Source: Breoghania corrubedonensis
GTDB taxonomy: Bacteria; Pseudomonadota; Alphaproteobacteria; Rhizobiales; Stappiaceae
Assembly (NCBI RefSeq): GCF_003053845.1
Contig: NZ_QAYG01000001.1
Location: forward strand, 1,618,078 to 1,682,077
DNA: 64,000 bases
Direction of reading: 5' to 3'
Every line of letters starts with the position of its first letter. The first letter of the stretch is position 1. Shown in pieces: positions 4,386 through 56,033 of the stretch. The translations under genes and the position numbers were made by a program. The notes under the pieces were generated by a model. That model was not told where the DNA came from. It worked only from the letters and a program-made list of their open reading frames with translations, and did not search any database.

Positions 4386-5414
4386 TCACTTCGCCTTGAC
4401 CACGGGATAGAGCCCCTGCGGCCGCCACATCAGCACCGCCACCATCAGCGCGATGGTGGAGACGAGCGCGACCTTGGGGGCGAGGAAGGCGGCATAGTTG
4501 GCGAGAAGGCCGACGAGCAGCGCGCCGATGAAGCAGCCCTCGACCGAGCCGAGCCCGCCGATGATGACGACGACGAAGACCAGAACCATGATCTCGCTGC
4601 CCATTTGCGCGGTGATCGTCTCCTGATAGAGCCCCCACATGACGCCGCCGAGCCCCGCAAGCGCGGAACCCGCCACGAACACCCACAGAAACAGCGCCTT
4701 GATGCGATAGCCGAGCGCCTCCACCATTTCGCCGTTCTCCACGCCCGCGCGCACCAGAAGGCCGATCCGCGTCTTGCGCAGGACATGACGCATGGCGAAA
4801 AACAGCGCGAGGCCGACGGCGACCGCCAGGATCCGGTATTTCTCGATGGCCGCGCCGAAGACGATGACGGAGCCCTGAAGCGTTTCGGGCCGGGCGATAT
4901 GGAGCGCGTCAGGTCCCCAGATCACGTGGATCAACTGCTCGGTGACGATGAGCCCGCCCATGGTGACCAGGATCTGCTTCAGGTGGAAGCCGTAGACCGG
5001 CATGACGATGACGCGTTCGAACAGCCAGCCCATCGCGCCGGTGGCGATCATCGCCGCCAGGATGGCGAGGAGAATGGCGGAGATGTTCATCACGATGTCG
5101 GGCGTACCGGTCCAGCCCGAAAGGAGGCTGAGCACCGTCACGCCGACGAAGGCGCCGACGGCGACGAAAGCGCCGTGGCCGAAATTGATCACGTCCATCA
5201 GGCCGAAGACGATGGTCAGCCCCGAGGCCATGATGAAGATCATCAGCCCCATCGCGAGGCCGGCCACTGTGAGCGTCAGCCAGGTCGTGGGATCGCCAAT
5301 GGCGATGAGGCCGAGAACCGCCAGAACCGGGGCCAGCAGCAGTGGGGCGTGTTCGCCGAGCCTTTGCGAAAACGACAGTTCGTCGAAGCGCGGGCGGATG
5401 CGTTCGTCGCTCAT
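4386..5414 (-). CDS. livH: Branched-chain amino-acid-type ABC permease LivH
   Basis: 342 residues with a hydrophobic core of ~9 membrane segments. GLTIVFGLMDVINFGHGAFVAVGA near residue 65 and IIGGLGSVEGCFIGALLVG near residue 285 are LivH hallmarks. The ~25-residue polar N-terminal extension is a little longer than in E. coli LivH (308 aa). The start overlaps the livF stop by 4 bp, so the genes are one transcriptional and translational unit. Partners LivM in the membrane channel. Confidence 0.88.
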   Translation of the reverse strand: MSDERIRPRFDELSFSQRLGEHAPLLLAPVLAVLGLIAIGDPTTWLTLTVAGLAMGLMIFIMASGLTIVFGLMDVINFGHGAFVAVGAFVGVTVLSLLSGWTGTPDIVMNISAILLAILAAMIATGAMGWLFERVIVMPVYGFHLKQILVTMGGLIVTEQLIHVIWGPDALHIARPETLQGSVIVFGAAIEKYRILAVAVGLALFFAMRHVLRKTRIGLLVRAGVENGEMVEALGYRIKALFLWVFVAGSALAGLGGVMWGLYQETITAQMGSEIMVLVFVVVIIGGLGSVEGCFIGALLVGLLANYAAFLAPKVALVSTIALMVAVLMWRPQGLYPVVKAK

Positions 5415-6136
5415 TGATGCGCCTCCAGGCTCAATCCCATCAGCCTCTCCTGCAGGCCCGCGTCGGCGCTCAGGTCCGCCATGTCGCCTTCATGAATGAT
5501 GCGACCGTCGTCCATCACCGCCACGGTGTCGCCGAGTGCGCGCGCCATGGAGAAGTTCTGCTCCACCAGCAGGATCGTGGTGTCGGTTTCCTTCAACTGC
5601 CGGAGCGCCGCCGTCATCGCCTTGATGATGGCCGGCGCCAGCCCCTTGGTCGGTTCGTCGATCAGGATCAGCGCGCGCGGCTCGATGATGGCGCGGGCGA
5701 CGGAAAGCATCTGCTTCTGTCCGCCCGACAGGGTGCCGGCCGGCGAATGCCAGAAGGTTCTGAGCGGGGGAAAGAGATCGCAGATCCAGTTGAGGCGCGG
5801 GCGGTCCGGCGCACCGGAACGGGCGGCGAGCATCATGTTCTCCTGAACCGTCAGGTCGGTGAAGATGCCCATGTCCTCGGGAACGAAGGCGATGCCGAGT
5901 TTGGCGATGGCCGGCGTGTCGAGCCCGGCGATATCGCGGCCGTGGAAGCGGATCGTGCCGGCGCTCGCCTTCCACAGGCCCATGATGGTTCTGAGTGTCG
6001 TCGTCTTGCCCGCGCCGTTGCGGCCGAGCAGCATGGCGACGCCGCCGGCCGGCACCTCGAGGTCGACACCGTGCAGGATGTGGTAGGGCCCGATATGGGT
6101 ATGGACGCCGTCGAGCGTCAGGAGCGCTTCAGGCAT
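5411..6136 (-). CDS. livF: Liv-type ABC transporter ATP-binding protein LivF
   Basis: 241 residues, the LivF length. Walker A GRNGAGKTT at residues 38-46, ABC signature LSGGQKQ, Walker B LILIDEP, and the late LLVEQNF switch segment are all intact. It powers import through LivHM together with LivG. The start overlaps the livG 3' end by 8 bp. Confidence 0.9.
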   Translation of the reverse strand: MPEALLTLDGVHTHIGPYHILHGVDLEVPAGGVAMLLGRNGAGKTTTLRTIMGLWKASAGTIRFHGRDIAGLDTPAIAKLGIAFVPEDMGIFTDLTVQENMMLAARSGAPDRPRLNWICDLFPPLRTFWHSPAGTLSGGQKQMLSVARAIIEPRALILIDEPTKGLAPAIIKAMTAALRQLKETDTTILLVEQNFSMARALGDTVAVMDDGRIIHEGDMADLSADAGLQERLMGLSLEAHQ

Positions 6137-6911
6137 CGACAGTCTCCTCTTCCGGCTCGCGGCCGAGATAGGCCTGTTGCACGATCGGCGAAGCGATGAC
6201 TTCGGCGGGCTCCCCGTCGGCCACCAGCGCCCCGTTGTGCAGCACGATGATGCGGTCTGCGAGCGAGCGGATCACGTCCATCTTGTGCTCCACCAGCAGG
6301 ATCGAACGGTCCGTGTCGCGCTTCAGCCCCGCGATGAGGTCGAGCACGACGGGCACCTCGTCGACGCTCATGCCGGCGGTCGGCTCGTCGAACATGAGAA
6401 CCTGCGGCTGCAGCGCGATCAGCATCGCGACTTCCAGTTTCCGCTGGTCGCCATGGGAAAGCGCCGCGACGGTCTGGTCGGCCTTTTCAATGAGCCGGAC
6501 CTCGGCCAGAACGTGTTCGGCGCGCTCGATCAGTTCGACATGCGAGGACGCGACGGAAAAGAGATCGTAGCCGCGCCGTGCCCGGGCCTGCGCGACAAGG
6601 CGGACGTTCTCGCGCACCGTGAGGCTTGGAAACAGGTTGGTCAGCTGGAAGGCGCGGCCGATGCCCCGATCGGTGCGGGCCGCAACCGAGAGACCCGACA
6701 GATCCTCGCCGTTCAGCAGCACCTTTCCCGATGTCGCGGTGAGCTGACCGGAGATCAGGTTGAAATAGGTGGTCTTGCCGGCGCCGTTCGGGCCCACGAT
6801 GGCGGTCGTCGTGCCGCGCTGGAAAGCGCAGGAAACCGCATCCACGGCGACGTGGCCGCCGAAGCGGATGGTCAGGTCGCGGGTCTCAAGGACGGGATGT
6901 TCGCTGGTCAT
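6129..6911 (-). CDS. livG: Liv-type ABC transporter ATP-binding protein LivG
   Basis: 260 residues with Walker A GPNGAGKTT (40-48), Walker B VLMFDEP and a diverged signature LSHGDQRKLE in place of the usual LAYGQQRRLE. The SHGDQ form recurs in a sub-branch of LivG-like proteins and does not imply inactivation. The C-terminal region with AYLG is typical of LivG. It is the first gene after the 293-bp gap containing a palindromic element that separates it from the binding-protein gene. Confidence 0.88.
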   Translation of the reverse strand: MTSEHPVLETRDLTIRFGGHVAVDAVSCAFQRGTTTAIVGPNGAGKTTYFNLISGQLTATSGKVLLNGEDLSGLSVAARTDRGIGRAFQLTNLFPSLTVRENVRLVAQARARRGYDLFSVASSHVELIERAEHVLAEVRLIEKADQTVAALSHGDQRKLEVAMLIALQPQVLMFDEPTAGMSVDEVPVVLDLIAGLKRDTDRSILLVEHKMDVIRSLADRIIVLHNGALVADGEPAEVIASPIVQQAYLGREPEEETVDA

Positions 6912-7204
6912 GGGCGATCCGGTGTTCTTCGGGTGGGCGATGATGGAAAACCCACCGCAAGGATTGCGCGGCGTGTCGGTTCCTCGTCATCCCGGACAAG
7001 CGAGGCGAAGCCGAGTGCAGATCCGGGATCCAGCGACCAAGCGGCGCGAAGCGCCTCAATAGGGTCTAGTGAGGAAGGCGGGTTTTCCTGCGAAAGCAGC
7101 GCTTCGCGCTACTCATTACGCTGGATCCCGGGTCGTCTCCGCTTCGCTTCGCGCCCGGGATGAGGGATTTGGGGGACGCACGCGCGCGCCCCCGATCCCT
7201 CCGC
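6912..7204. other. Intercistronic gap between binding protein and livG
   Basis: 293 bp without a coding sequence, between two genes of the same operon on the minus strand. Almost all of it is taken up by the long imperfect palindrome at 6987-7163 described separately. It may act as an RNA stem-loop that lowers livGFHM expression relative to the binding protein or stabilises the upstream message. Confidence 0.6.
6987..7163. repeat. Long imperfect palindromic (REP/RIME-like) element
   Basis: Outer arms of about 47 bp at 6987-7034 and 7119-7163 are inverted copies with some mismatches: both begin TCATCCCGG on their own strand and end in GGGATCCAGCG. The 84-bp middle contains a second GC-rich inverted pair, GGCGCGAAGCGC (7043-7054) facing AGCGCTTCGCGCT (7098-7110). 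TCATCCCGG...GATCCGGGATCCAGCG blocks of this kind are commonly dispersed between genes in Rhizobiales and related bacteria; other copies cannot be checked here. Confidence 0.65.
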
Positions 7205-8425
7205 TCACTGGTTGTGGATCGGAATGTCCATGTCGTCGATCTTCAGTTCCCTGACGAGTTCGGGAACGCCCCATTCCAGGTTCGGATCAACCTTGATCTT
7301 GAAGTGGTACATGGACTGCAGCGCCTGGTGATCTTCCTTGCGGAAAACCATCTTGCCCTTCGGCGTCTGCCACTCCATGCCTTCCATCGCGGCGATCAGG
7401 TCCTCGGTGTCGGTGGAGCCACCGGTCTTCTTCAAGGCCTCGACGATCGCCATGCCCGCCGCCATGCCGCCGGCGGTGAAGAAGTCGGGCGGAGTGCCGA
7501 AGCGCTTCTCGTGCTCGGTCACCAGCCAGTCGTTCACCGGGTTTTTGGGGATGTCGTAATAGTAGTAGGTCGCGCCTTCCATGCCGGGCAGCGCCTTGTA
7601 GGCCTTCATGGCGGCCAGGATGTTGCCGCCCGTGGCGATCTCGATGCCGAGGCGGTCGGGGTCCATCGCCTTGATCTTGCCGATCGGGTTGTTGCCGCCG
7701 GCCCAGATCACGAACAGGAACTTGCGGCCCTTCTCACCCTTCAGGGCATCGAAGATGCGCTGGGCGGAGGCGGTAAAATCCTGCGTGTCGGTCGGGGCGT
7801 ATTCCTCGAACACCAGTTCCGCGCCGGTTCCCTTCAGCGCCTGCTTGAATGCGGCGACGCCGTCGCGGCCGAAGGCGTAGTCCTGGGCGAGCGTCGCGAT
7901 CTTCACGCCGGGCTTGCCGAGCGCGACGGCGTTGGCGACCGCGTCCTGCGAGGAATTGCGGCCCGTGCGGAAGATGTAGCGGTTCCAGTTCTCGCCGGTG
8001 ATGCTGTCGGCCACCGCCGGTTCCACCAGCAGGATCTTGCCGTATTCCTCGGCGACCGGAAGCATGGCGAGCGCGACGCCGGAAGATACCGGGCCGACCG
8101 CGATGGCGGCATCGTCGTCACCATAGGCTTCGGCCAGCGCGGCGCGGCCGACGTCGGGCTTCAGCTGGGTGTCCTTTTCGATGACGACGAGCTTGTTGCC
8201 ATCGACCTCCATGCTGCCGTCGGTGGCGTATTCGAGGCCCATCATCAGCCCGGTATGGGACTGCTTGGCATAGGCCTCCAGCGCGCCGGTCTTGCCGTAG
8301 ACATGGGCGATGGTGATGTCCTCGGCCGCTGCCGGGGCGATGCCGGCGGCAAGAAGGGCGATGCCGGCTGCCATGCTGGCGGCCAAGCCGGCGCGACGGC
8401 CGGCCCAATTGAATGCACGGTTCAT
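7205..8425 (-). CDS. Periplasmic substrate-binding protein of the Liv-type ABC transporter
   Basis: 406 residues with an export signal (Arg-rich start, hydrophobic stretch, cleavage near APAAAEDITIAH at residue ~33-35) followed by a type I periplasmic-binding fold (Peripla_BP_6). It begins the mature chain with ITIAHVYGKTGALEAYAKQ, similar to branched-chain, urea and amide-binding members. It is the first gene of the SBP-livGFHM-hydrolase operon. The ligand cannot be read off the sequence; the coupled hydrolase suggests something that is cleaved after uptake. Confidence 0.85.
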   Translation of the reverse strand: MNRAFNWAGRRAGLAASMAAGIALLAAGIAPAAAEDITIAHVYGKTGALEAYAKQSHTGLMMGLEYATDGSMEVDGNKLVVIEKDTQLKPDVGRAALAEAYGDDDAAIAVGPVSSGVALAMLPVAEEYGKILLVEPAVADSITGENWNRYIFRTGRNSSQDAVANAVALGKPGVKIATLAQDYAFGRDGVAAFKQALKGTGAELVFEEYAPTDTQDFTASAQRIFDALKGEKGRKFLFVIWAGGNNPIGKIKAMDPDRLGIEIATGGNILAAMKAYKALPGMEGATYYYYDIPKNPVNDWLVTEHEKRFGTPPDFFTAGGMAAGMAIVEALKKTGGSTDTEDLIAAMEGMEWQTPKGKMVFRKEDHQALQSMYHFKIKVDPNLEWGVPELVRELKIDDMDIPIHNQ

Positions 8426-8801: not shown

Positions 8802-11800
8802 TCATTTCTTCGCGGTGACGTCATCGTCCGCAGTCAGGGGAACGTCGCGCATCTGTTCCGCCAGTTCGCTCAAGCGGCGGATCTCCTTGGTTCCCGCGGA
8901 GGCTGCCGCAACCGTCTTGAGGGCGATGGGCGGGGCACCGGTGGGGACGATCTTTCTGGGCGTCGGTTTGCCGATCAGGTAGCCCTGCACCTCGTCGCAG
9001 CCTTCGGCGACCAGAAGGCGAAGCTGCGAACTCGTTTCCACTCCCTCCGCCACCAGCCGCATGCCGAGCGCTCTGCCCAGTTTGAGGATGGTCTGCACAA
9101 TCGCCATGGCGTTGTCGCTGGTCTGAAGCCCGGCGATGAAGGAACGATCGATCTTGATGGCGTCGAAGGGGAAGCGGCTCAGATAGCCGAGTGCGGAATA
9201 GCCGGTGCCGAAATCGTCAAGCGCGATCCGCACGCCAAGCCGCTTCAACGCCTTCAGGATGGTGAGTGCGCGGGCGTCGTCATCAATGACGACATTCTCC
9301 GTGATTTCGATTTCAAGCTTCTCCGCATCCAGTCCGCTGCCTTTCAACGCCTCCTCGACCGTATCGACGAAGGCCTTGTCGCGGAACTGCAGAGGGGAGA
9401 CGTTGACCGACACATGCCGTTCGCCGAAATCCTGCTTGGTGATCCGGCAGGCGTTGATCAGCACCCATTTTCCGATCTGCACGATCTGGCCGGAATGCTC
9501 CGCGACAGGGATGAAATCCGTCGGGCTCACGAGCCCCCGGGTCGGGTGGTGCCAGCGGATCAGGGCCTCATAGCCGGCGAGGGAGCCGTCAGCGACCGCC
9601 ATGCGGGGCTGGAAGTACAGTTCGAACTCGTCGCGCTCGATGGCGACAGCGAGATCGGCCTCCAGCTCCCGGCGCACCTTCATCGCGGCGTCCATGCCCT
9701 CCTCGAAGGTACAATAGGCGCCCCTGCCCATACTCTTCGCCTTGTAGAGGGCTGTGTCGGCGCGCGAGATCAGGGTGTCTCCGGTTCTGCCGTTGGTGGG
9801 GGCAACAGCGACACCGATGCTGGCGCCGGCGCGGACGACGAGCCCGTTGCCGCAATCGATCGGCTTGGCCAGGATCTGCAACAGACGGTGGGCGAGGTCG
9901 GCGGCCTGATTGGCGAAGCCGATATCGGCCTGGATCACGGCGAATTCGTCGCCGCCGAGCCGCGATACCGTGTCGCCGCTGCGCACCGCCTTGCGCATGC
10001 GTTCGGCGGTGACCTGGATGACCGTGTCGCCGACCGGATGCCCGTGCAGGTCGTTGATGTCCTTGAAGCGGTCGAGGTCGACAAGAAGCACAGCGGTCAG
10101 GCTCGCGGTATTGTCCAGCGTAGCCAGCCGCGCTTCCAGGCGGTCGGTGAAGACCGCACGGTTGGGCAGGTCCGTCAGGGGATCGTGCTGGGCGAGATGG
10201 CGGATGCGCTCCTCCGCCTTCTTGCGTTCGCGAAGGTCGACCACCGCGGAAACGCGCGTGTGCTCGCCGCGATAGACGATCTCGCGGGTGCGCACTTCGA
10301 CCGGAATGCGCTGGCCGTCGGCATTGACTGCCAACATTTCGCGAGGGCTGCCTGCCTCTTCTGCGGAAGCGGGTTCCTCGTCGCCCTGCACCGACAGGAA
10401 AAGGGTCTGTGCGCCAACACCCTTCAGGCTTTCGAGGGGGTGGCCGAGCAGCTCTTCCAGCGCCGCGTTGCCATCGACGACCTTGTCATCGATGGTGATG
10501 ACAATGGCCTCGAAAGTGGAATTGGCAAGCGCAGTCAAGCGTTCGGCTTCTTCCTGGGAACGCTTCTTCTCGACCGCGTAGTTGCGCGCGAGTTCTTCGT
10601 TCTGGATGGAATCCATGAGCTGGTTGAAGAGTGCCGACAGACGTTCCGCCTCGTCGCCGGGAATGACCGGCAGGCGAAGCGACAAGTCGGTCGTGCCGCC
10701 GATCAACTGGGAGTAGGCTTCCTCCACGTGGCCGATGCCGAAGCGGGTATTGTGTTCGGCTTCGTTGAGCCCCTTGATCTCGCCGGCGTCATCGACACGC
10801 ACACGCATGACTTTTCCGAGCGCCCAGAAGAAGACCAGGCCGATACTGAAGGCCCAGGTGAAGTTGATCCCCACCCCCAGCGCCTGAACGCCGAGCTGGT
10901 CCAGCCGGGAACCTGCGGGAAGGTTGGCGACCGGAGCCAGGATCGCCGGCGCCAGCGTTCCCACCACGCCGGCCGCGCCATGGACGCCAACCGCACCGAC
11001 GGCGTCGTCGATCTTCAGCCGCGTCTCCATGAACCTGTTTGCCCAGACGGCCGCAAACCCGCCAAGAGCACCGACGAGAAGCGCGCCGGCGGGCGTGAGC
11101 ACCATGCAACCGGCGGTGACCGCCACCAACCCGCCGACCATGCCGGAAAAGGCCTTTTCGGGATAGATGAGCCCGTCCTGGCGCTGTCCTTCCAGATATC
11201 CCGCCACACCACCCGTACCGGCCGCGAGGACCGTATTGGCGATGATATGCGCGATCGCGGGAACAGCCGCCGCCGTTGAGCCGCCGTTGAAGCCGATCCA
11301 GCCGACGAAAAGCAGGAAGGCGCCGGCGGTGGCCAGAACGGGGCTGTGACCCTGGATGCGGATCGGGGAGCCGTCCGCCGCAAATCGTCCGATGCGCGGG
11401 CCGATGACGATGCAGGCGGCCAGCGCGATCCATGCGCCTGTGGAATGCACCACCGTGGATCCGGCGAAGTCGATGAAGCCCATATTGCCCAGAAAGGCGG
11501 AGGCGTTCGCGATAAGCGCGCCGCCCCAGGCCCAGTGCACGAAGATGGGATAGACGAGGCCGGCAATCAGCATCGAACAGAGAATATAGGCGGTCAGCGG
11601 CATGCGTTCGGCCACCGCTCCGGAAACGATCGTCGCCGCCGTGCCGCAGAACATCACCTGAAAGGCGAAGAAGCCGAGGCCCCACTCATCGAGCCCGTGC
11701 AGCATGAAGAAGCGGTAATCGATGCCCAGCCAGTGGCCGTTGCTCGCGCCAAAGGCGAACATGAACCCCACGGCGGCGAACATGATCACCGAGAACACGA

Positions 11801-12137
11801 AGTCGAGCATGTTCTTCTGGGCGACGTTGACCGAGTTCTTGGACCGCACCATGCCGGCTTCCAGCAGCATGAAGCCGACCTGCATCAACAAGACGAGAGC
11901 GGCTGCGATCAGCAGCCAGATGAAGTCGAGGTGACGGCTGTAGGCTTCCAGCCGGGTGACACGATCGACAAGGTCGTTGAGATCGCCAGGTCCGGACGCG
12001 GCCGATGACATGGCAGGGCCGGGCGCCGTAGCGGCCGCGTTTGCAGCCGCAGCCCAAAGGGGCGCCGTTACCAGGCAGGTTGCGGCCACCAGGCCCGGCC
12101 CGCCTGGTATCTCTGGTCTCAGACGAATTCGACGCAT
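8802..12137 (-). CDS. Ammonium transporter fused to PAS, GGDEF and EAL domains (putative ammonium-sensing c-di-GMP enzyme)
   Basis: 1111 residues. Residues 1-34 look like a signal peptide, ~65-450 are an Amt/AmtB channel with about eleven membrane segments, ~485-520 is a HAMP-like linker (DLSLRLPVIPGDEAERL), ~530-640 a PAS domain, ~640-805 a diguanylate cyclase and ~815-1065 an EAL phosphodiesterase. The channel twin histidines are kept (H231 in VHSTGAW, H386 in VHGAAG). The cyclase has GGDEF at 728-732 and an inhibitory RxxD site (R719-D722) at the correct spacing; the EAL domain keeps EAL at 857-859, ITENV, DDFGTGYSAL and AEGVE, so both catalytic domains look active. Monocistronic. It may link external ammonium to cyclic di-GMP; that role is inferred from architecture. 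Confidence 0.92.
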   Translation of the reverse strand: MRRIRLRPEIPGGPGLVAATCLVTAPLWAAAANAAATAPGPAMSSAASGPGDLNDLVDRVTRLEAYSRHLDFIWLLIAAALVLLMQVGFMLLEAGMVRSKNSVNVAQKNMLDFVFSVIMFAAVGFMFAFGASNGHWLGIDYRFFMLHGLDEWGLGFFAFQVMFCGTAATIVSGAVAERMPLTAYILCSMLIAGLVYPIFVHWAWGGALIANASAFLGNMGFIDFAGSTVVHSTGAWIALAACIVIGPRIGRFAADGSPIRIQGHSPVLATAGAFLLFVGWIGFNGGSTAAAVPAIAHIIANTVLAAGTGGVAGYLEGQRQDGLIYPEKAFSGMVGGLVAVTAGCMVLTPAGALLVGALGGFAAVWANRFMETRLKIDDAVGAVGVHGAAGVVGTLAPAILAPVANLPAGSRLDQLGVQALGVGINFTWAFSIGLVFFWALGKVMRVRVDDAGEIKGLNEAEHNTRFGIGHVEEAYSQLIGGTTDLSLRLPVIPGDEAERLSALFNQLMDSIQNEELARNYAVEKKRSQEEAERLTALANSTFEAIVITIDDKVVDGNAALEELLGHPLESLKGVGAQTLFLSVQGDEEPASAEEAGSPREMLAVNADGQRIPVEVRTREIVYRGEHTRVSAVVDLRERKKAEERIRHLAQHDPLTDLPNRAVFTDRLEARLATLDNTASLTAVLLVDLDRFKDINDLHGHPVGDTVIQVTAERMRKAVRSGDTVSRLGGDEFAVIQADIGFANQAADLAHRLLQILAKPIDCGNGLVVRAGASIGVAVAPTNGRTGDTLISRADTALYKAKSMGRGAYCTFEEGMDAAMKVRRELEADLAVAIERDEFELYFQPRMAVADGSLAGYEALIRWHHPTRGLVSPTDFIPVAEHSGQIVQIGKWVLINACRITKQDFGERHVSVNVSPLQFRDKAFVDTVEEALKGSGLDAEKLEIEITENVVIDDDARALTILKALKRLGVRIALDDFGTGYSALGYLSRFPFDAIKIDRSFIAGLQTSDNAMAIVQTILKLGRALGMRLVAEGVETSSQLRLLVAEGCDEVQGYLIGKPTPRKIVPTGAPPIALKTVAAASAGTKEIRRLSELAEQMRDVPLTADDDVTAKK

Positions 12138-12556
12138 CGCACTTGCCTCGCCAAGGCCGTTGGCCCGCTCATGGTATCTTGCCTAACGTTTTCATCGTTA
12201 AAATTCGCATAAGGGGAAACTGCGCGATTGCTCAAAATGAAGGCAGTGCCCGAAAGAGACTACGGAATTGGCAGTTGCGCAGACACATGACGTGCGAACG
12301 CTTGGCGCGCGCGGCGCGCGACGCCGTCAAGCAGAAATAACGGTAAGGAATTGACTGGGTGCGACCAAAAACACCATTTCATCCCCGCGATATTGTCGAT
12401 CTTTACAAAATGCCCCCTAAACACGAGTGATTAGTTCGTCTATACCGAAAATCCTGTGATCCACGACTGCTGATCCGGGGGCCGGTTCAATCGACTGCGC
12501 ATCGTGGTGGGCTTTCGTTTCCATTCATCAAGAAAAGTCATCGGGAGGATTTCCGT
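12138..12556. other. Divergent promoter region, no gene seen
   Basis: 419 bp between the divergent Amt-fusion and symporter genes. It is less GC-rich than the flanks and should contain both promoters. A GC-alternating run occurs at about 12304-12322. A TTGACT hexamer at 12351-12356 could be a -35 box for the symporter, but the -10 position 17 bp downstream is poor. No sigma-54 (GG-N10-GC) promoter was found, which argues against simple NtrC control of the Amt fusion. Confidence 0.4.
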
Positions 12557-13516
12557 GTGAAAATCCTGGCTTCCATCTCCGCCTTCGTCGGGCGAACCTT
12601 TGCACTCTGGACCATTCTGTTCGCCTTGCTCGGCTTCTTTCTGCCCGACCTCTTCAAGCTTCTGGTACCCTGGATCGTGCCGTTGCTGGCGCTCATCATG
12701 TTCGGCATGGGCCTGACGCTTTCGGGCCGCGATTTCGCCGAGGTCCTGCGCCGGCCCTTCGAGGTCGGCATTGGTGTCGTCTCGCAATTCCTGATCATGC
12801 CGCTCATCGCGGTGGCGCTGACGAGCGTCATCCCGATGAGCCCGGAAGTCGCCGCCGGGGTCATTCTCGTCGGCTGTTGCCCGGGTGGCACGTCGTCGAA
12901 CGTCATGACCTATCTCTCCAAGGGAGATCTCGCGCTTTCCGTCGCATGCACCAGCGTGACGACGGTGCTCGCTCCCTTCGTGACGCCGTTCCTCGTCTAC
13001 ACGTTCGCCAGCCAGTACCTGCCGGTGGATGCCGGGGCCATGTTCCTGTCGATCGTCAAGATCGTGCTGGCGCCGCTGGCGCTGGGCTTCATCCTGCAAA
13101 AGCTTGCGCCGAGGCTGGTCGCTGCTGCCGTTCCGGCGCTGCCGCTGGTCAGCGTCGCGGGCATCGTGCTGATCGTCGCCGCCGTTGTTGCCGTCTCCAA
13201 GGGCAAGATCGTGGAATCCGGATTGATGATCTTTGCGGTCGTGGTGCTGCACAACGGCCTTGGCTACATGCTCGGTTTCTTTGCGGCGCGCACCTTCGGG
13301 TTGTCTCTCGCCAAGCGCAAGGCGATCGCGATCGAGGTCGGAATGCAGAACTCAGGCCTGGGCGCGGCGCTTGCCAGCGCTCACTTCTCGCCGGCCGCGG
13401 CCGTGCCAAGCGCGATCTTCAGCGTTTGGCACAATATATCGGGTGCGCTGATCGCGAACTATTTCGCCGGCAAAACGGAAGAGAAACCGTCGCGCCTCGG
13501 TGTCAGAAACGCCTGA
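12557..13516 (+). CDS. Bile acid:sodium symporter family transporter (PanS/YocS-like)
   Basis: 319 residues, ten predicted membrane segments, SBF family. The ILVGCCPGGTSSNVMTYLSKGD segment near residue 95-115 and EVGMQNSGLGAALA near residue 255 are the two crossover motifs that bind sodium and substrate in this fold. Starts with GTG 12557 preceded by a strong GGGAGGA at 12543-12549. Bacterial members carry keto-acids or pantoate/ketopantoate, taurocholate or other organic anions; the substrate is not determinable. Stands alone, divergent from the Amt fusion. Confidence 0.88.
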   Translation: MKILASISAFVGRTFALWTILFALLGFFLPDLFKLLVPWIVPLLALIMFGMGLTLSGRDFAEVLRRPFEVGIGVVSQFLIMPLIAVALTSVIPMSPEVAAGVILVGCCPGGTSSNVMTYLSKGDLALSVACTSVTTVLAPFVTPFLVYTFASQYLPVDAGAMFLSIVKIVLAPLALGFILQKLAPRLVAAAVPALPLVSVAGIVLIVAAVVAVSKGKIVESGLMIFAVVVLHNGLGYMLGFFAARTFGLSLAKRKAIAIEVGMQNSGLGAALASAHFSPAAAVPSAIFSVWHNISGALIANYFAGKTEEKPSRLGVRNA

Positions 13517-49179: not shown

Positions 49180-50541
49180 ATGGCACGATCCTCCTCCACC
49201 GACCGCCGTTACCTCGAGCTTCACGGGGGCAAATGGCGGGTGACGATATCCATTCCCCGCGACCTCCAACGGAAGCTCGGAACGAAACTGAAGCACCCTT
49301 TGAACACCGACAGTCTCGCAGTGGCCAATCGGCTGAAGTGGCCGGTGATAGCCCGGTTAAAGGAGAGGATTGAGCTGGAAAGAGGGGGCGGTCTTCACGC
49401 GTCCCATATCAAGCAGGCCTTGGTTATGTCCGACTCTCGCCGCAGCGCGGTCAGCGATGTCGAACTGGTCGCCTCTGATGCGGCCATCATCGAACTGGCG
49501 GATCAAATTCTTGGGCCGGTTGTCGATGAGGGAACAAACGCCGTAACCGGGCAGGTCGAGCCGGTCTACAATAAGGACCGTGAAAAGCGAGCGGTCGAGT
49601 TTGCCAAAGTGGCTCTTGGGCATGCCACTCCCATGGACCGACATCACCAGCAATATCTCGACCAGCTGACGGTCAAGCCACGCACACGAGCGGACGACGA
49701 ACGTGCCATGAAGTACCTCAAGGCATGGTGCGAACTGGAGGGAGTCTCACCGGTTCTTCAGAGCTTCACCCGGAAGACCGCTGTGCGTTTCATGGATGGA
49801 CTGTCAGGCGTTGCCCAGGGCCTTTCGCCGGTGACGCTCAACAAGTATCTGCGGCGTCTCTCGCGGTACTGGCAGTGGCTCGAGATGCGCAATGAGGTCG
49901 AGGACAATATATGGCGAGGGTTGACCATCGCCGAGCCCAAGACGGCGTACGACGAAGCCGAGCGTTCCTTCACCGATGATGAAGTGCGGAGGCTGCTTCA
50001 GGGCGAGGCGACACAGCACATGCACGATCTGATGAGGATTGCAGCGCTGACCGGCGCTCGCATCGATCCTATCGTCTGTCTAAGGGTCTGCGATTGCGCT
50101 GATGGTGTCTTCATCTTCAAGCCGCAGAAGAAGGAAAAGAAGGAACGCGCCTGCCCCATCCATCCCGACCTTGCCGCCATCATCGAAAGGCGCGTTGAGG
50201 GAAAGGAGCCGGAGGATGCGCTCTTCCCGGAATGGCCTGCGCCACGAAAGAAGGGCTCAATGCGGGAGCGGTCTTTCAAGGCATCTAGCCAGTTCACGGA
50301 CTATCGTCGCAAGATGGGCGTCGATGAGGTGGTAAGCGGCAAGCGGCGCTCGCTGGTGAACTTCCACTCTTTCCGGCGGTGGTTCATCACCAAGGCGGAG
50401 CAAGCCGATCAGCCCGAGTCCATCATCGCGGCGGTTGTGGGCCACAAGAGGCAGGGGATGACGCTTGGCCGGTACTCGGCTGGGCCGCTTGTGGATCAGG
50501 CACGACGGTGCGTGGAAGCCGTCAACTTACCCTGCCCTTAG
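49180..50541 (+). CDS. int: Tyrosine recombinase/phage integrase of the island
   Basis: 453 residues. The catalytic set is complete: Arg294 in LTGARIDPI, a Lys in the KKEKKERACPIH beta-hairpin, His396 and Arg399 in NFHSFRRWF, His422 in VVGHKRQG and nucleophile Tyr432 in GRYS. An N-terminal arm-binding/SAM-like region precedes it (YLELHGGKWRVTISIPRDLQ, typical of alphaproteobacterial DUF6538-like integrases). Starts 109 bp inside attL and drives integration into the tRNA-Ala 3' end. Should be active by sequence. Confidence 0.92.
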   Translation: MARSSSTDRRYLELHGGKWRVTISIPRDLQRKLGTKLKHPLNTDSLAVANRLKWPVIARLKERIELERGGGLHASHIKQALVMSDSRRSAVSDVELVASDAAIIELADQILGPVVDEGTNAVTGQVEPVYNKDREKRAVEFAKVALGHATPMDRHHQQYLDQLTVKPRTRADDERAMKYLKAWCELEGVSPVLQSFTRKTAVRFMDGLSGVAQGLSPVTLNKYLRRLSRYWQWLEMRNEVEDNIWRGLTIAEPKTAYDEAERSFTDDEVRRLLQGEATQHMHDLMRIAALTGARIDPIVCLRVCDCADGVFIFKPQKKEKKERACPIHPDLAAIIERRVEGKEPEDALFPEWPAPRKKGSMRERSFKASSQFTDYRRKMGVDEVVSGKRRSLVNFHSFRRWFITKAEQADQPESIIAAVVGHKRQGMTLGRYSAGPLVDQARRCVEAVNLPCP

Positions 50542-50867
50542 GGATGACGGATCGAGGGGCTCTTGACGTTACTGCCCGAACGAGAGGCATCAGCGCCTCA
50601 CATTTTTCCCCACCCACGTTTTTCCGGCTGGGCATCATAGAAGCCCCCTGAGAGACTCATAGAAGGCAACGGGTCTCTTTGGAGCACTGTGGGTGGCGAG
50701 CGGTCAGGATGACTCCCTGTGAGTCTCCCAAAAGGCTTCGCGGCCGTGCAGGTGCTTTGCAGGGCATCGTTGGCGTAATGCTGTCTGCTTTGGTCGGTTG
50801 GCGGGGACGTATCTGAGGCCTTCGCCTCTGGCCCTTCAAAGGTATTTGGGGCAAACGGAAGAGCCGC
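50542..50867. other. Gene-free stretch in the island
   Basis: 326 bp between the integrase and the convergent ClpP-like gene. Small frames occur on both strands but none has a ribosome site or family features. Confidence 0.4.
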
Positions 50868-52019
50868 TCATTCCCCGCAGCAGACACGCTTCACATAGGT
50901 GTTGCCGAGGGTCACGAAGCTGTCCTGCGGGATTTCGCCCTTGCTCTTGAGAAGTCTGGTCAGACCGATAGCCTTGTCAACTTCATAGCTGTCGCCGACC
51001 GTGACGGCGTACCAGCCATTCGTGGCCACGAACACGGAAGCCTTCAGCGGGAATGCTCGAGCAAAGGTGTTCGCGTCATAGGCGTTGTCGAAGCTCTTGA
51101 TTTGGATGAGGCGCTGATAGCCCGGGGTGCCATCGAACTGATCCACGCGCACCCAAGTGTGGTGCAGGAAACCTGTGCGACCGTCTGCGCGGACGCGGTA
51201 CCAGCGGTCGGAGTCGCTAAGGATGGTTATGCGGGTGCCGTTCTTGAGCGTTGCGGCGTCCTCGGCTTTGGTGCCGGGCGAGGTCTTTAGATGCACCGCT
51301 CCCTTGGGATGACGCACGTATCCTGACCGCGCTGTTGGCAATGCGGGGGCTTTCCCGGAGGCATCCAACTGCGCCGTTGGCTTGTGAAACGGATTGTCCG
51401 TTACCTGTGGCGGCGGACTTCTTCTGGGTGATGTGGCATTGCCGACCCACGTCACGCGATACCGCGCCATCTCCTCGCGAGAGAGGTAGCGCATGTCGTT
51501 CGCCTCAGTCTTGAGGGAAAGCTGGAGAAGCGAAGGGTCAACTCCCATCTCCACCATGTAAGCGACAATGTCCGCCGTCATCTCTTGGATCACTGAGACC
51601 GCGACGTCCGCGTCCGGTGTAAACCCAGGTGAGAATGTGGACTTGTGAACACCGATTGCCCCGGCTTCGGCTCCTCGATTGACGCCGCCCATGAAGGCGA
51701 GTGCGCATGCCGAGCTGCATTCCAGCATGCGCAGTTGCAGGGTCGAGAGGTTCAGTTTGCGTATGATGCGTCCAAGCTCCATCGCCTTGGCAACGTTGCC
51801 TCCGGGGCTTTGGAAGCTGATGAACATGGGCTCGTGGATGATGGCCTGCGCGGCAAAGGTGGCCAAGTCATCATCGTGGTCGAACGTGCCCGATACGAGG
51901 ATAAACTTCAGGCCGTCGTTGGTCGTTTCGGGCACGAAGTCGAGCTTCGCTTGCACCCCCGTGGCAGCAACGGTTGCAGCGAAAAAAGTGAACGCCATCA
52001 TCAGGCTTGAAATACGCAT
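50868..52019 (-). CDS. Secreted ClpP-like serine protease-fold protein with SH3b domain
   Basis: 383 residues. Signal peptide 1-24 (FFAATVAATGVQA). Residues ~35-200 are a ClpP/crotonase-like fold, with SPGGN (71-75) as oxyanion loop, Ser103 in ECSSACALAFMGG, His125 in AIGVHKS, and a Tyr/Asp-rich end. A proline-rich linker (~205-235) leads to a bacterial SH3 region at ~240-300 (HLKTSPGTKAEDAATLKNGTRITIL...GRTGFLHHTWV) and a SPOR-like C-terminus. Such proteins are usually periplasmic and of unknown substrate; the SH3/SPOR parts point to the cell wall. It is cargo of the island. Confidence 0.75.
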   Translation of the reverse strand: MRISSLMMAFTFFAATVAATGVQAKLDFVPETTNDGLKFILVSGTFDHDDDLATFAAQAIIHEPMFISFQSPGGNVAKAMELGRIIRKLNLSTLQLRMLECSSACALAFMGGVNRGAEAGAIGVHKSTFSPGFTPDADVAVSVIQEMTADIVAYMVEMGVDPSLLQLSLKTEANDMRYLSREEMARYRVTWVGNATSPRRSPPPQVTDNPFHKPTAQLDASGKAPALPTARSGYVRHPKGAVHLKTSPGTKAEDAATLKNGTRITILSDSDRWYRVRADGRTGFLHHTWVRVDQFDGTPGYQRLIQIKSFDNAYDANTFARAFPLKASVFVATNGWYAVTVGDSYEVDKAIGLTRLLKSKGEIPQDSFVTLGNTYVKRVCCGE

Positions 52020-52061
52020 ACTTCCGCCCCGATACCCCGCCGGATCTCTCCTCGTATCAGC

Positions 52062-52438
52062 CTAGCACGTCAACTCTACACGCCAAGATGCCGTTGCCAA
52101 GACCCGCAGCCGTCGGCATGCGTCCAGTGTGCCGCCGTTCTTGCGGATGCTCGGGATATCCTCGCGGGTCACCCAGTCCTGAAAGGGCTTGGCCTCCGGC
52201 TTGTCGCTGCGCATGATTAGCTTGTAGAGGCCACTTTCCGAAAGGTGATGCATCTGTCGTAGCTGGACGCGCCCGTTCGAGAGATCCACTTGCATCCGAT
52301 GTAAGCGAACCTCATCGGCAGAGGGCGTGGAGAACCGCTTCGGAGTGAAGCACACACTCCCGACCATGCGTCGATAGCAATATCTAACGTACGGCCAACA
52401 TCCTGTACTGTGAACCACGGCTTCCCGTCGATCTCCAT
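52062..52438 (-). pseudogene. BRO-N-type phage antirepressor, frameshifted remnant
   Basis: Two overlapping frames together spell a BRO-N domain. The frame ending at 52217 begins MEIDGKPWFTVQDVGRTLDI, the usual BRO-N beginning. The frame ending at 52062 gives HHLSESGLYKLIMRSDKPEAKPFQDWVTREDIPSIRKNGG, the usual second half. No single frame covers both, so a frameshift or deletion near 52330-52380 has broken the gene. It is a phage-derived relic and supports a prophage origin for the island. Confidence 0.7.
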
Positions 52439-53137
52439 GACGCGGACGACGGGGGTGTGGAAGTCGTGACTGGGCTGGGTTGAAAGGCAGTCACCTAGAA
52501 CATCAAACGCTGCTCATCACAGTCCACTCAGGAGGAGGTTTTGAAGGACGTGCTGGGGCAGGGGCGGGTTTGAAACGTAGTCACTCAGTGGGGGATGATA
52601 CATGTCAGGAGTGTTCTTTAAGAGACTTAAGGATGGTGCTGGGTTGCCGTTCCCGTGACCGTCAAGGCCTGCGGCAGTGCAGTCCCTGAGCCCCAAGACG
52701 CCCATCGTGCCGCCAAGAGCGCAAGAGTGTCCTGCCGGTGTTCTCTGGTGGAACGCCACCCCGCACACCAAGCCCATCACCTCGGATGCTCCCCGCTCTG
52801 GTTGGTGGACGGCATCGACGCTCCACTAAGACAGACAGGGCGGGGTGGTCGTTTTCTAAGACGCCGCGCCATGCGAAAGACGCCTGAGGCTCCCCGGCTT
52901 CTCCGTAGCCTCTGATGACCCTTAGGCACCCGCGACCATTTCGGGGAAAAATCTGTTGGCTTATATCGATAGAGTTGCGCGGCAGCTTTCCCCCATACGG
53001 GGGTAGGGCTGCTGCTGCGACCTATACCGGGCGCTTCAACGCCGGAGACGGCGAGTCTCCGACGACTAAGCAGCGCTGTCTCAATTGGGTGCACCCCTGA
53101 GGGGCACTTAGGTGTGACATCGTGCCAAGTGATTTCG
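52439..53137. other. Gene-poor island DNA
   Basis: About 700 bp. Several small frames exist (for example 52655-52915 and 52777-53094) but they lack family features, ribosome sites and consistent codon use. Two loosely similar 20-bp blocks occur at 52478-52497 (TTGAAAGGCAGTCACCTAG) and 52570-52590 (TTGAAACGTAGTCACTCAG). This looks like degraded prophage sequence. Confidence 0.45.
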
Positions 53138-53200
53138 CGTCACAATAGGGTTGCTGCAGCTGTTATGTGACGATATGCAGTATGGGTCTAACCCTATTGT
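53138..53200. repeat. Nested inverted repeats upstream of the serine recombinase (res-like site)
   Basis: CGTCACA (53138-53144) faces TGTGACG (53166-53172), and ACAATAGGGTT (53142-53152) faces AACCCTATTGT (53190-53200). The second pair ends 14 bp before the recombinase start codon. Such dyads are where Tn3-type resolvases and invertases bind their own promoter and crossover site. Confidence 0.6.
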
Positions 53201-53214
53201 TACAGGAGGGACTC

Positions 53215-53775
53215 ATGTCCCGCATTGGCTACGCTCGCGTTTCAACCGCTGACCAACACACCGATACTCAGGTCGAGCGGCTCAAGGCAGCCGGGTGCAG
53301 TCCTGTCCGGCAAGAGAAGGCGAGCGGGAAGAGCCGGGAAGGGCGTGACGAGCTTGCAGCTATCCTCGACTTCATTCGCGAAGGCGATGAGCTGGTGGTG
53401 GTGAAGCTCGACCGGCTGGGGCGTTCCACGCGGGACGTCCTCAACCTCGTCCATGAACTGGAAGAGCGCGGCGCATCCCTGCGGGTTCTGGAGCCCGAGT
53501 TCTCAACGGGCGATGGGACCGGTCGCATCCTCGTCACCGTGCTCGGGATGGTGGCGGAAATGGAGCGTGAGTTTATCAAGGAGCGCCAAAGGGCCGGGAT
53601 CGATGCTGCCAAGGCCAAAGGGGTCTACAAGGGCCGCAAGGCGTCGGTGCCGGTGGAGCGTGTCAGGGAACTTGCCTCGGAGGGATGCGGAGCGACTGCC
53701 ATCGCGCAAGCGCTGGGGATCTCAAGGATGAGTGTCTATCGGGCTTTGGATGGCGTGGTGGCGTCGTCGGAGTAG
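53215..53775 (+). CDS. Serine recombinase, resolvase/invertase family
   Basis: 186 residues, Pin/Tn3-resolvase length. The N-terminal catalytic domain has the nucleophile Ser in IGYARVSTADQ, and the Arg cluster in VVKLDRLGRSTRDVLNLV; the long E-helix region (MVAEMEREFIKERQRAGIDAAKAKG) leads to a C-terminal helix-turn-helix (GATAIAQALGISRMSVYRAL). ATG 53215 follows AGGAGGG at 53204-53210. It could resolve or invert DNA around the repeats upstream. Confidence 0.9.
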   Translation: MSRIGYARVSTADQHTDTQVERLKAAGCSPVRQEKASGKSREGRDELAAILDFIREGDELVVVKLDRLGRSTRDVLNLVHELEERGASLRVLEPEFSTGDGTGRILVTVLGMVAEMEREFIKERQRAGIDAAKAKGVYKGRKASVPVERVRELASEGCGATAIAQALGISRMSVYRALDGVVASSE

Positions 53776-53898
53776 ATTCCGCTTCTATCGCGACTTCCTA
53801 ATTTTCTACTCCTTCATTTTTTAGGTTGTCGAGTGTGTCCACCCCGCATAGATTTGCATGATAAGTAATTCATATTACTCATACTTAAAGCAAGCTCA

Positions 53899-54729
53899 AT
53901 GATACCCGTCAGCGCGATTCTAACACTTAAAATTGAGACTGAAGAGCCAATCGAATTAGATGCGTTCGTCGGCGCTTTTACTTCGATAGCCGAAGAATAT
54001 AGGAGAAGTATCCGGGAATATCATCCGGATATAGAAGGCGATTCGCGTATCTATGTTAAGGAAATAAGAAAAGGGTCATATGAGGCGGATCTGATACCGC
54101 TCGTTGCTGCTGCGGCGGCTCCCTTGGTTTCCAGTATGGATCAGCTTTTGATTGCCGAGCAATTTGTTCGCACGTGGGGTGCGCGGATCAAAGCGTTAGC
54201 ATCGGGTAAGTTCGATGGTTGGGAGCCAACCAAGGGCGAGCTTGCAACGTTGGCGAATGCAACCAAAGCCATTGCGACAGACCCAAATGCATCGTCGACG
54301 TTATCAGCTGTTCGATACAGAGACGGGCGTCGAGACGTTGAAGCTTCTTTTGTGTTTTCAACACCGGACGCAGTTCGGGCTCAAGCGTCTATAGATGCCG
54401 CATATCGAGCGCTCGAAGCGACTGACCACTCTGAGTATCGGCGGGTATTAATGGTTTTCACGCGATCTGATATAGGTAGCGCTCGCGTTGGCAGGCGATC
54501 TGCTGATCGTGTGAAGATTGAAGAGCTTTCTCCCAAGCCTCTTGCGGTTATGTATGCATCGGACCTTGCTAAGGACCGTATAAAACATGAGATTAGAGAG
54601 AGCGATGATAATATCTACAAAAAAGGATTTGTTGTTGATGTAAATGTTCGTACGCTTAACGGTAAGCCGTCTGTGTATGCGGTAACTAATGTTCACGAGA
54701 TTATAGAATTACCTGACGATGACGAATAG
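53899..54729 (+). CDS. Unknown AT-rich island protein
   Basis: 276 residues from ATG 53899. Not recognised. No signal peptide; one weakly hydrophobic Ala-rich stretch at ~70-85 (DLIPLVAAAAAPLVSSMDQ). The N-terminal third reads like an alpha-beta domain (ILTLKIETEEPIELDAFVGAFTSIAEEYRRSIREY), the C-terminal third has VVDVNVRTLNGKPSVYAVTNVHEIIELPDDDE. Base composition is clearly lower in GC than neighbouring core genes, suggesting recent transfer. It is the last gene before attR, a usual position for accessory cargo such as defence or toxin genes, but no such domain can be identified. Confidence 0.7.
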   Translation: MIPVSAILTLKIETEEPIELDAFVGAFTSIAEEYRRSIREYHPDIEGDSRIYVKEIRKGSYEADLIPLVAAAAAPLVSSMDQLLIAEQFVRTWGARIKALASGKFDGWEPTKGELATLANATKAIATDPNASSTLSAVRYRDGRRDVEASFVFSTPDAVRAQASIDAAYRALEATDHSEYRRVLMVFTRSDIGSARVGRRSADRVKIEELSPKPLAVMYASDLAKDRIKHEIRESDDNIYKKGFVVDVNVRTLNGKPSVYAVTNVHEIIELPDDDE

Positions 54730-54976
54730 GTGGTGTGCGAGCGTCTCAACAACTTTCCATCTTACCATATTGCGATGTTGACATTGCGCAGTCCGATCGG
54801 TGCGGCATTGCTGATAGCTTCAGCTCTTGCGCATGTGTAGACGCAAGGGGCGGCGTAATCAAAATTCTTGCATCGGGAGCGGGTACGCAGCCTGGGTACG
54901 AATGTGGGTACGCACTGCCTCGCACCGTTCGGCTAAGGCATTGAAATAATTTCGCGATTTTAAATGGAAAACCAAA

Positions 54977-55052
<76 letters not shown>

Positions 55053-55381
55053 ATCTCTTGAGTGAGGCGCATTTAGTCGGCGAGGGAGGGGGCTGTCAAG
55101 GGACCCTGCGTGCGAAATTAAACGTTCTTTCCATCCATCCCCCGGGATGCCTTGAAAACGAGGCTTCGACCGCCTCTTTTTCCACTGCCGGGCTCAGGTT
55201 TCTGCCTGACGGACGGTGGTGCGGCTCGTCAGGTTTCGCCCGGGCGGAACCTGCCGCATTTACCGCCGTGGAGAACGCGGCGCTCACCCGTCTTGCCATG
55301 CCGCCGGGCTATCGCTACATCTGCGACACCAAATATCGCCGGAACCCAATTGAGACCCCGAACACGGAAAGATCGACCCAG
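55053..55381. other. Intergenic region between tRNA-Ala and yggT
   Basis: 329 bp holding the tRNA promoter and presumably that of yggT. A frame open from 55058 into yggT is not supported as coding; the real gene begins at 55382. Confidence 0.45.
55071..55099 (-). promoter_or_regulatory. Promoter of tRNA-Ala
   Basis: On the minus strand TTGACA (55099-55094) is separated by exactly 17 bp from CTAAAT (55076-55071), with the tRNA 5' end 19 bp beyond. A strong sigma-70-type promoter. Confidence 0.75.
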
Positions 55382-55678
55382 ATGGCCGTCGTCTGCTCCA
55401 TCGTCCCCGTCGTCCTGCTCGCGCTGCAGCTCTACTCCTACGTCATCATCGCATCCGCGATCTTCTCGTGGCTCTATGCGTTCAACGTCATCAATCCGCG
55501 CAACCAGTTCGTCGGCATGATCGGCCAGACGCTCTATGCGCTCACGGAACCGGTCTACCGGCCGATCCGCAACGTCCTGCCCGCCATGGGCGGGCTCGAT
55601 CTGTCTCCGATCGTCGTTCTGCTGTTGCTGATCCTCATCCAGAACCTGATCACGAATCTCAGCGGCTGCTACTTGTAG
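55382..55678 (+). CDS. YggT family membrane protein
   Basis: 98 residues, typical of single-unit YggT proteins, with two membrane segments ([25 protein letters not shown] and [14 protein letters not shown]) and the motif [24 protein letters not shown]. The family is linked to cell division, osmotic shock and membrane integrity, without a defined activity. Encoded 25 bp before a DUF167 gene, its regular companion. Confidence 0.88.
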
Positions 55679-55703
55679 CAGCGGTGCTTACCGGAGGCTG
55701 GCG

Positions 55704-56033
55704 GTGAGCGCGGATGCGCCCTGGCGCGTGGTCGAGGGCGGTGTCGATGTGGCGCTGCGGCTGACGCCGAAGGCGGCGAACGACCGGATCGACGGGGCGA
55801 GCGTCCTGTCTGACGGGCGCGCCGTGCTGCTTGCCCGCGTTCGCGCGGTGCCGGAAAAGGGTGCTGCCAACAAGGCGCTGGAAAAGCTTCTCGCCAAGGC
55901 GCTGAAACGGCCCGCCCGCGATGTCTCGGTCACGGCCGGCCACACCGCGCGCCTCAAGACCGTTCACGTTGTCGGCGAGCCGGGTGACCTCGTTTCCGCC
56001 CTTCAGGCTCTCGCGAAGCCGGCCGGAGGCTGA
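55704..56033 (+). CDS. DUF167 (YggU) family protein
   Basis: 109 residues, DUF167 fold: VDVALRLTPKAANDRIDG, then VLLARVRAVPEKGAANKALEKLLAKAL, and VSVTAGHTARLKTVHV. Start is GTG 55704 behind GGAGG. Function unknown; conserved next to yggT and folD in alphaproteobacteria. Confidence 0.88.
   Translation: MSADAPWRVVEGGVDVALRLTPKAANDRIDGASVLSDGRAVLLARVRAVPEKGAANKALEKLLAKALKRPARDVSVTAGHTARLKTVHVVGEPGDLVSALQALAKPAGG

Follow-up and report, generated by a model that had tools for sequence, protein, structure and literature searches.

A putative ammonium receptor in Breoghania corrubedonensis that joins an Amt domain to PAS, GGDEF and EAL domains in one protein

Can a bacterium read the ammonium outside the cell and pass the reading to cyclic di-GMP (c-di-GMP) within a single protein? 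The sensing of external ammonium apart from its uptake has few worked-out examples, and we found two receptor-type Amt (ammonium transporter family) proteins with solved structures, Ks-Amt5 and Sd-Amt1. The question is raised by a gene of Breoghania corrubedonensis that lies on the reverse strand at positions 8802-12137 of a 64,000-nucleotide stretch of contig NZ_QAYG01000001.1 (the whole stretch being hereafter the window), and whose product carries, from N- to C-terminus, Amt, HAMP-like linker, PAS, GGDEF and EAL domains in one frame. Judged from its sequence, the protein would be a dedicated receptor for ammonium that alters the balance between synthesis and breakdown of c-di-GMP, a reading to which we assign a probability of about 0.68 and which is supported by the domain order, the catalytic positions, a receptor-type Amt with six residues that correspond to ammonium ligands of Ks-Amt5, and the presence of separate transporters with glnK.

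Architecture of the fused protein

The gene is a single uninterrupted frame with an ATG start and no internal stops, and is laid out as follows (pLDDT, predicted local distance difference test):

8802..12137, reverse strand: whole gene, Amt-HAMP-like-PAS-GGDEF-EAL, 1111 amino acids (single open reading frame; architecture common to 12 aligned orthologues)
11979..12137, reverse strand: N-terminal 53 amino acids, hydrophobic, poorly conserved, possibly signal-peptide-like (model helix 15-36, pLDDT <50)
10746..11921, reverse strand: Amt domain, residues 73-464 (Pfam PF00909 Ammonium_transp, E 1.6e-100)
11622..11882, reverse strand: region of the putative buried ammonium site, with Q86, E93, N109, D112, T169, S172 (alignment to Ks-Amt5)
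10521..10736, reverse strand: HAMP-like signalling linker and coiled coil, residues 468-539 (low-confidence model helices 468-479 and 497-539)
10233..10520, reverse strand: PAS domain, residues 540-635 (PAS_9 in 13/13 family proteins; fold match)
9723..10193, reverse strand: GGDEF domain, residues 649-805, motif G728-F732, RxxD R719/D722 (Pfam E 5.1e-43)
8964..9659, reverse strand: EAL domain, residues 827-1058 (Pfam E 5.3e-74; the eight catalytic positions checked are present)

A preliminary description, made from the letters of the window, had already placed these five parts in one protein, and the single open reading frame, the Pfam matches and the orthologues bear it out; its worry that a frameshift might part the Amt from the enzymes is answered by the same full-length architecture in 12 other genomes. 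The window protein shares 52-68% identity with the 12 orthologues, 11 of which belong to its family and one to its order, and together with it they make up the 13 aligned proteins in which invariant positions were counted (Amt 154/392, linker 22/72, PAS 16/96, GGDEF 54/157, EAL 82/232). The profile search proposed in that description gave strong Amt, GGDEF and EAL domains, a PAS domain that is clear across the family only (PAS_9 E 0.0018 and under the gathering score in the window protein itself, best E 5.9e-9 among the 13), and a marginal HAMP match (E 0.013, below the gathering score, in the window protein; 6 of the 13 proteins, best 2.6e-4), for which its wording 'HAMP-like' was apt. An AlphaFold model of a 211-residue linker fragment (mean pLDDT 63.5) showed a PAS fold matching the solved FixL and LOV PAS domains. 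The full-length model (mean pLDDT 75.1, predicted template modelling score, pTM, 0.44) was compared with solved structures by Foldseek, which matched its Amt part to Ks-Amt5 (6eu6, target template modelling score, TM, 0.93) and Sd-Amt1 (0.92), and its GGDEF-EAL part to the structure of PA0575.

Both putative output enzymes keep the catalytic positions checked. The residues checked are those generally held to be catalytic in GGDEF and EAL families. In the window protein the GGDEF motif, the RxxD site (R719xxD722) and all eight EAL positions are present, in agreement with the earlier reading of a GGDEF domain with an RxxD site next to an intact EAL domain. Across the 17 rows of the window family in our Amt tree, the EAL set is complete in all and the GGDEF motif exact in 16 (one has AGDEF); R719 and D722 occur together in 12, an unevenness which suggests that product inhibition is inessential to the design.

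Receptor, transporter or PAS-driven enzyme

By sequence, the Amt half is nearer to the receptors Ks-Amt5 and Sd-Amt1 than to transporters (6eu6, E 4.1e-94; 8qj3/8qpf, about 2.5e-80; best transporter 2b2f, 2.6e-41). According to PMC5764959, the buried ammonium of Ks-Amt5 is bound by Q24, E31, N47, D50, T51, T109 and T112. These align with Q86, E93, N109, D112, F113, T169 and S172 of the window protein, of which all except F113 do not vary among the 13 aligned proteins. Equally invariant are the pore residues, namely the twin histidines H231 and H386 (the two channel histidines of the preliminary description, both present), the filter residues W204 and S287, and the gate residues F163 and F283.

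The genome as a whole holds three full Amt genes and one weak match under the family cut-off. The other two amt genes belong to a glnK-amt-amt operon (L076) at a distance of some 168 kb, and of the two P-II genes one is part of this operon and the other sits on a separate contig. There is thus no glnK beside the fusion gene, the nearest P-II gene being 168 kb off; the preliminary description was right to remark on this absence, and the Ks-Amt5 receptor gene likewise has no glnK nearby according to the introduction of PMC5764959. Signalling by c-di-GMP is probably in use in this genome, as it contains 11 GGDEF-EAL matches at E <1e-40 (the window protein among them) and five places that match PilZ.

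On the receptor reading, ammonium would pass the outer filter and then the phenylalanine gate, and would bind the buried site formed by the six conserved residues; binding within an Amt trimer would move the end of the last Amt helix, and this shift might be relayed through the HAMP-like coiled coil and the PAS domain to the GGDEF-EAL pair, where the ratio of cyclase to phosphodiesterase would change. The likely role of the PAS domain is that of either a second input or a relay, and, by analogy with Sd-Amt1, we lean slightly towards ammonium favouring the cyclase.

Several observations weigh against a dedicated receptor. The seventh Ks-Amt5 ligand, T51, is replaced by F113 (Sd-Amt1 has F here too), and two of the three bulky residues held to block the Ks-Amt5 pore are absent (L92 and M96 stand for Y30 and F34). 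The six-residue site occurs in 70 of the 74 fused Amts of our 135-sequence set but also in 38 of the 61 unfused ones (a share biased upward because the set was gathered using receptor-type queries), and for this reason the buried site alone was rejected as a mark of receptors. Moreover, support for a clade of all fused Amts is only moderate (86-88), the HAMP assignment is marginal, and the pTM of the full-length model makes its domain arrangement uninformative. The unfused Amts with all six residues include L062-L064, L067, L068, L164 and L170; among the six unfused Amts checked first, the P-II motif was absent from the approximately 1.5 kb of flank examined.

Because unfused Amts carry the site and two of the three blocking residues are missing, the Amt half could still conduct, and the protein might then be a transceptor, carrying ammonium across the membrane and reporting that flux to the GGDEF-EAL pair. 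The intactness of every pore residue checked favours this, as does the presumption that the unfused site-bearing Amts transport; however, uptake is covered by the separate glnK-amt-amt operon, no P-II gene adjoins, and Ks-Amt5, the closest solved relative by sequence, is described in PMC5764959 as lacking efficient ammonium translocation, and we regard a transceptor as unlikely. Still less probable, in our estimate, is that the PAS domain is the working input while the Amt part serves mainly as a membrane anchor or for another ligand: the invariance of the six site residues and of the pore residues in all 13 aligned proteins speaks against it, and so does the PAS being the least conserved of the five domains (16/96 invariant positions against 154/392 in the Amt), even if in a sister genus a PAS-GGDEF-EAL arrangement with a related GGDEF-EAL module persists where the site residues have been replaced (7/7 proteins). 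As to a fusion of separate amt and GGDEF-EAL genes created by sequencing or assembly, we found no direct support for it, although faults of this kind do occur in the group: in another genome of the same genus (G002) the gene is in pieces, and the fact that its remaining Amt matches are fragmented as well suggests a poor assembly. Given the same full-length frame in 12 other genomes, we consider the chance of such an artefact negligible, and a chance frame or assembly fusion was rejected on the conserved architecture.

A dedicated receptor thus remains our preferred reading, and its surroundings were inspected for partners. No clearly conserved neighbour was found in the flanks of the 12 full orthologous loci, which fits a self-contained one-protein system. 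Functional links to the adjoining branched-chain/urea-type ATP-binding cassette (ABC) genes at 4386-8425 and to the PanS/BASS-like symporter at 12557-13516 were considered and rejected: the flanks of the 12 orthologous loci and of one locus with an Amt fused to a methyl-accepting chemotaxis protein domain (MCP) show only weak ABC-type similarity (22-34% identity, at L086 and L090 only). The four of these neighbours that were scanned (5411-6136 lay outside the scan) match NCBIfam models only under the curated cut-offs. No nitrogen-control sigma-54 promoter site with up to three mismatches occurs on the gene's strand in 12138-12560, and the window total is below chance. Farther along the window, a phage-type integrase gene (49180-50541) borders a stretch which is lower in GC (0.573 over 52001-56000) and carries a tRNA-Ala (54977-55052), and 49180-55052 may be an integrated element.

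Distribution and origins of the fusion

The preliminary description took an Amt with both cyclase and phosphodiesterase to be rare, and this was overstated. Amt-PAS-GGDEF-EAL proteins are not rare; they are widespread yet scattered, an Amt with both GGDEF and EAL being confirmed in at least 2 of 385 genomes drawn from the class (own and L111) and at least 15 of 398 drawn from the phylum (own included; L108 was confirmed by alignment to the window module only, and L109 was not classified). In the family, 23 of 61 genomes hold such a protein by frame length. The family count is of strong Amt matches (E <1e-90) inside frames of at least 1000 codons, and 16 of these 23 genomes were checked for GGDEF-EAL, 12 by Pfam and four by alignment (L152-L155, assigned to the window family from frame length and from alignment of both Amt and GGDEF-EAL). 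Among 41 genomes (own and 40 relatives), at least 12, own included, have an Amt-linker match inside a frame of more than 1000 codons. The 41-, 385- and 398-genome draws used E <=1e-60, and those of class and phylum scored at most four candidates per genome, so that their counts are lower bounds. The commonest Amt output in the class draw was, by motif, a histidine kinase, and a scan of named genomes gave, among the matches listed, mostly distant or unfused Amts.

For the phylogenetic analysis we used an Amt set of 135 rows that takes in 57 of the 80 named loci, while 20 gave no frame with the motif used. The set leaves out L162 (identical to L150), L187, L196, L022 (same locus as L112), L103 (Amt-PAS-PAS, not resolved), L147 (too diverged), L109, the kinase-type L027, L037, L042, L043 and L047, the plasmid loci L241 and L242, and database matches without locus sequence. 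A reduced tree of 88 rows drops L145, L110, L160, L218 and L167 (long or unsure) together with 42 others (36 unfused, 6 near copies). Pfam scans cover six of the 22 kinase rows (L023, L025, L110, L112, L113, L168), one is Ks-Amt5 and 15 were assigned by motif only; the tree label MCP-PilZ of L151 came from similarity, and a later domain scan found MCP and no PilZ. The GGDEF-EAL tree has 47 rows with several long branches, and its label 'Amtgamma' was also given to L146, a diverged protein of the same family, and to L167 of the Rhizobiaceae group.

All fused Amts fall on one side of a branch with support of 88 (135 rows) and 86 (88 rows), both under the 95 mark. In the 135-row tree the window family (17 rows, support 100) is placed inside a clade (support 99) with 10 Amt-MCP rows and L167, a GGDEF-EAL fusion without PAS on a long branch; this clade stands apart from the kinases, from Sd-Amt1 and from the gammaproteobacterial Amt-PAS-GGDEF-EAL proteins, its inner order is left open by the tree, and the Amt-MCP rows L094 and L163 fall outside it. 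A single origin of all Amt-GGDEF-EAL fusions was rejected when their 28 rows were forced into one clade (approximately unbiased (AU) test, p-AU 2.1e-5), a test weakened by the 135-row tree having been known beforehand, even though the group was set by architecture. In the GGDEF-EAL tree the group nearest to the window family consists of diverged proteins of the sister genus (L145, L146 and L147; support 99), a weaker branch (82) adds 6 of the 9 own-genome paralogues and L167, and the gammaproteobacterial modules lie elsewhere.

Since the AU test and the module tree agree, the fusion of GGDEF-EAL modules to receptor Amts probably took place on two or more occasions. Outputs also appear to have been swapped between receptors, because the Amt groups with chemoreceptors while the GGDEF-EAL module groups with those of its own family and genome; in our set, receptor Amts carry histidine kinase, MCP, SpoIIE-type phosphatase, or GGDEF-EAL outputs with no, one or several PAS domains. 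Tentatively, and with somewhat less than even confidence, we propose that the window protein is a two-way c-di-GMP ammonium switch that arose from alphaproteobacterial Amt chemoreceptors by output exchange, independently of the gammaproteobacterial fusions, and that in the sister genus the receptor dropped ammonium and its Amt fold was re-used for another signal.

The sister genus (g6) has the ordinary window-type protein in none of its 16 genomes among the 61 family genomes searched. In eight of the 16, frames of 1065-1115 codons encode Amt-like proteins that match L145, and a ninth match, in genome G792, is the Amt-MCP protein L149. All six ammonium-site residues are replaced in the seven proteins checked (L145, L147, L266-L270), and of the pore histidines L145 keeps one and the other six neither, in an alignment that is uncertain at 22-29% identity, although PF00909 still recognises L145. 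The GGDEF residues are intact in L145-L147 and the EAL positions in L145 and L146 (L146 has an internal stop), whereas L147 is gapped at one EAL position; L266-L270 were checked for GGDEF-EAL by motif only. On the simplest reading, this degenerate part would be an Amt fold that has lost the ability to sense ammonium, and the g6 proteins offer natural, ready-made controls.

The survey also brought up other combinations. L148:1117-3786 (G816) encodes a single protein with Amt, HAMP, MCP signal and PilZ domains, which may be a chemoreceptor for ammonium that also has a c-di-GMP-binding domain, and the same genome carries a 1093-codon Amt frame of the length of the window type. In Pelagibacteraceae (L182, L203) a receptor-type Amt is fused to a SpoIIE-type phosphatase domain, in the Planctomycetes bacterium syqfu (L168) there is an Amt-histidine kinase-receiver hybrid, and L163, from Salibacterium qingdaonense (Bacillota), is an Amt-MCP fusion outside Pseudomonadota. 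On the Phaeobacter inhibens plasmid pP88_b, typed as conjugative, a gene annotated 'ammonium transporter' (L241:2929-5394) encodes an Amt-MCP fusion of 821 amino acids and adjoins a recombinase and an IS481 transposase. The 710-residue Amt-PAS-PAS protein L103 (G708) ends where L102 and L104 run on into GGDEF-EAL, and may be broken or shortened.

Comparison with known systems

The window family offers, in relatives of Roseibium, a one-protein link between ammonium and the messenger of biofilm and motility; if the receptor reading is true, external ammonium could directly set settling versus swimming. The preliminary description was right about the kind of protein but put this link to function too firmly. 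Related receptors couple the same input to chemotaxis, kinase or phosphatase domains, which opens the testable question of whether one ammonium-binding module can drive several output enzymes, and of which residues set the coupling.

The preliminary description had named Ks-Amt5 as precedent; this stands for the receptor reading, but as regards the output Sd-Amt1 of Shewanella denitrificans (8qj3, 8qj4, 8qpf), a solved Amt-GGDEF receptor, comes closer. At the seven site positions Sd-Amt1 agrees with the window protein (Q, E, N, D, F, T, S) and, like it, has an Amt followed by GGDEF (8qj3 residues 461-629); at 644-661 amino acids it has, unlike the window protein, no room for an EAL domain after GGDEF, and in the Amt tree it falls into the other of the main receptor subclades. 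Reportedly, Sd-Amt1 contains a HAMP domain and ammonium acts as its switch.

Ks-Amt5 (Kuenenia, 6eu6) is the best-scoring solved Amt and shares with the window protein the twin histidines, the filter and gate residues, and five of the seven site residues (S for T once, F for T once), and differs from it in two of the three pore-blocking residues. Its output is a histidine kinase, without HAMP or PAS according to PMC5764959, whereas the window protein has GGDEF-EAL.

The GGDEF-EAL half is 41-42% identical to PA0575 (5m3c) and MorA (4rnh), with the catalytic positions kept, and DosP and PA0861 are further enzymes to which it can be likened. PA0575 is also called RmcA, and none of these four enzymes is known to have an Amt domain as its input. 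Transporters of the AmtB/GlnK kind share the Amt fold, the twin histidines and the conducting residues, but EcAmtB and AfAmt1 lack the charged pair of the ammonium site that the window protein has, and the window gene differs from them in having no adjoining glnK and in being fused to enzymes.

At the level of titles and the beginnings of abstracts, we found no publication on an Amt-GGDEF-EAL protein in the open literature, although one may exist. The gammaproteobacterial Amt-PAS-GGDEF-EAL proteins (Marinomonas, L173; Vreelandella, L172) carry the same outputs on a receptor Amt, but the AU test speaks against a single clade of all GGDEF-EAL fusions, and their GGDEF-EAL modules group apart from those of the window family. 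The kind of system is already known, as an Amt receptor with GGDEF (Sd-Amt1); what is new in the window family is the addition of PAS and EAL, and the probably separate origin.

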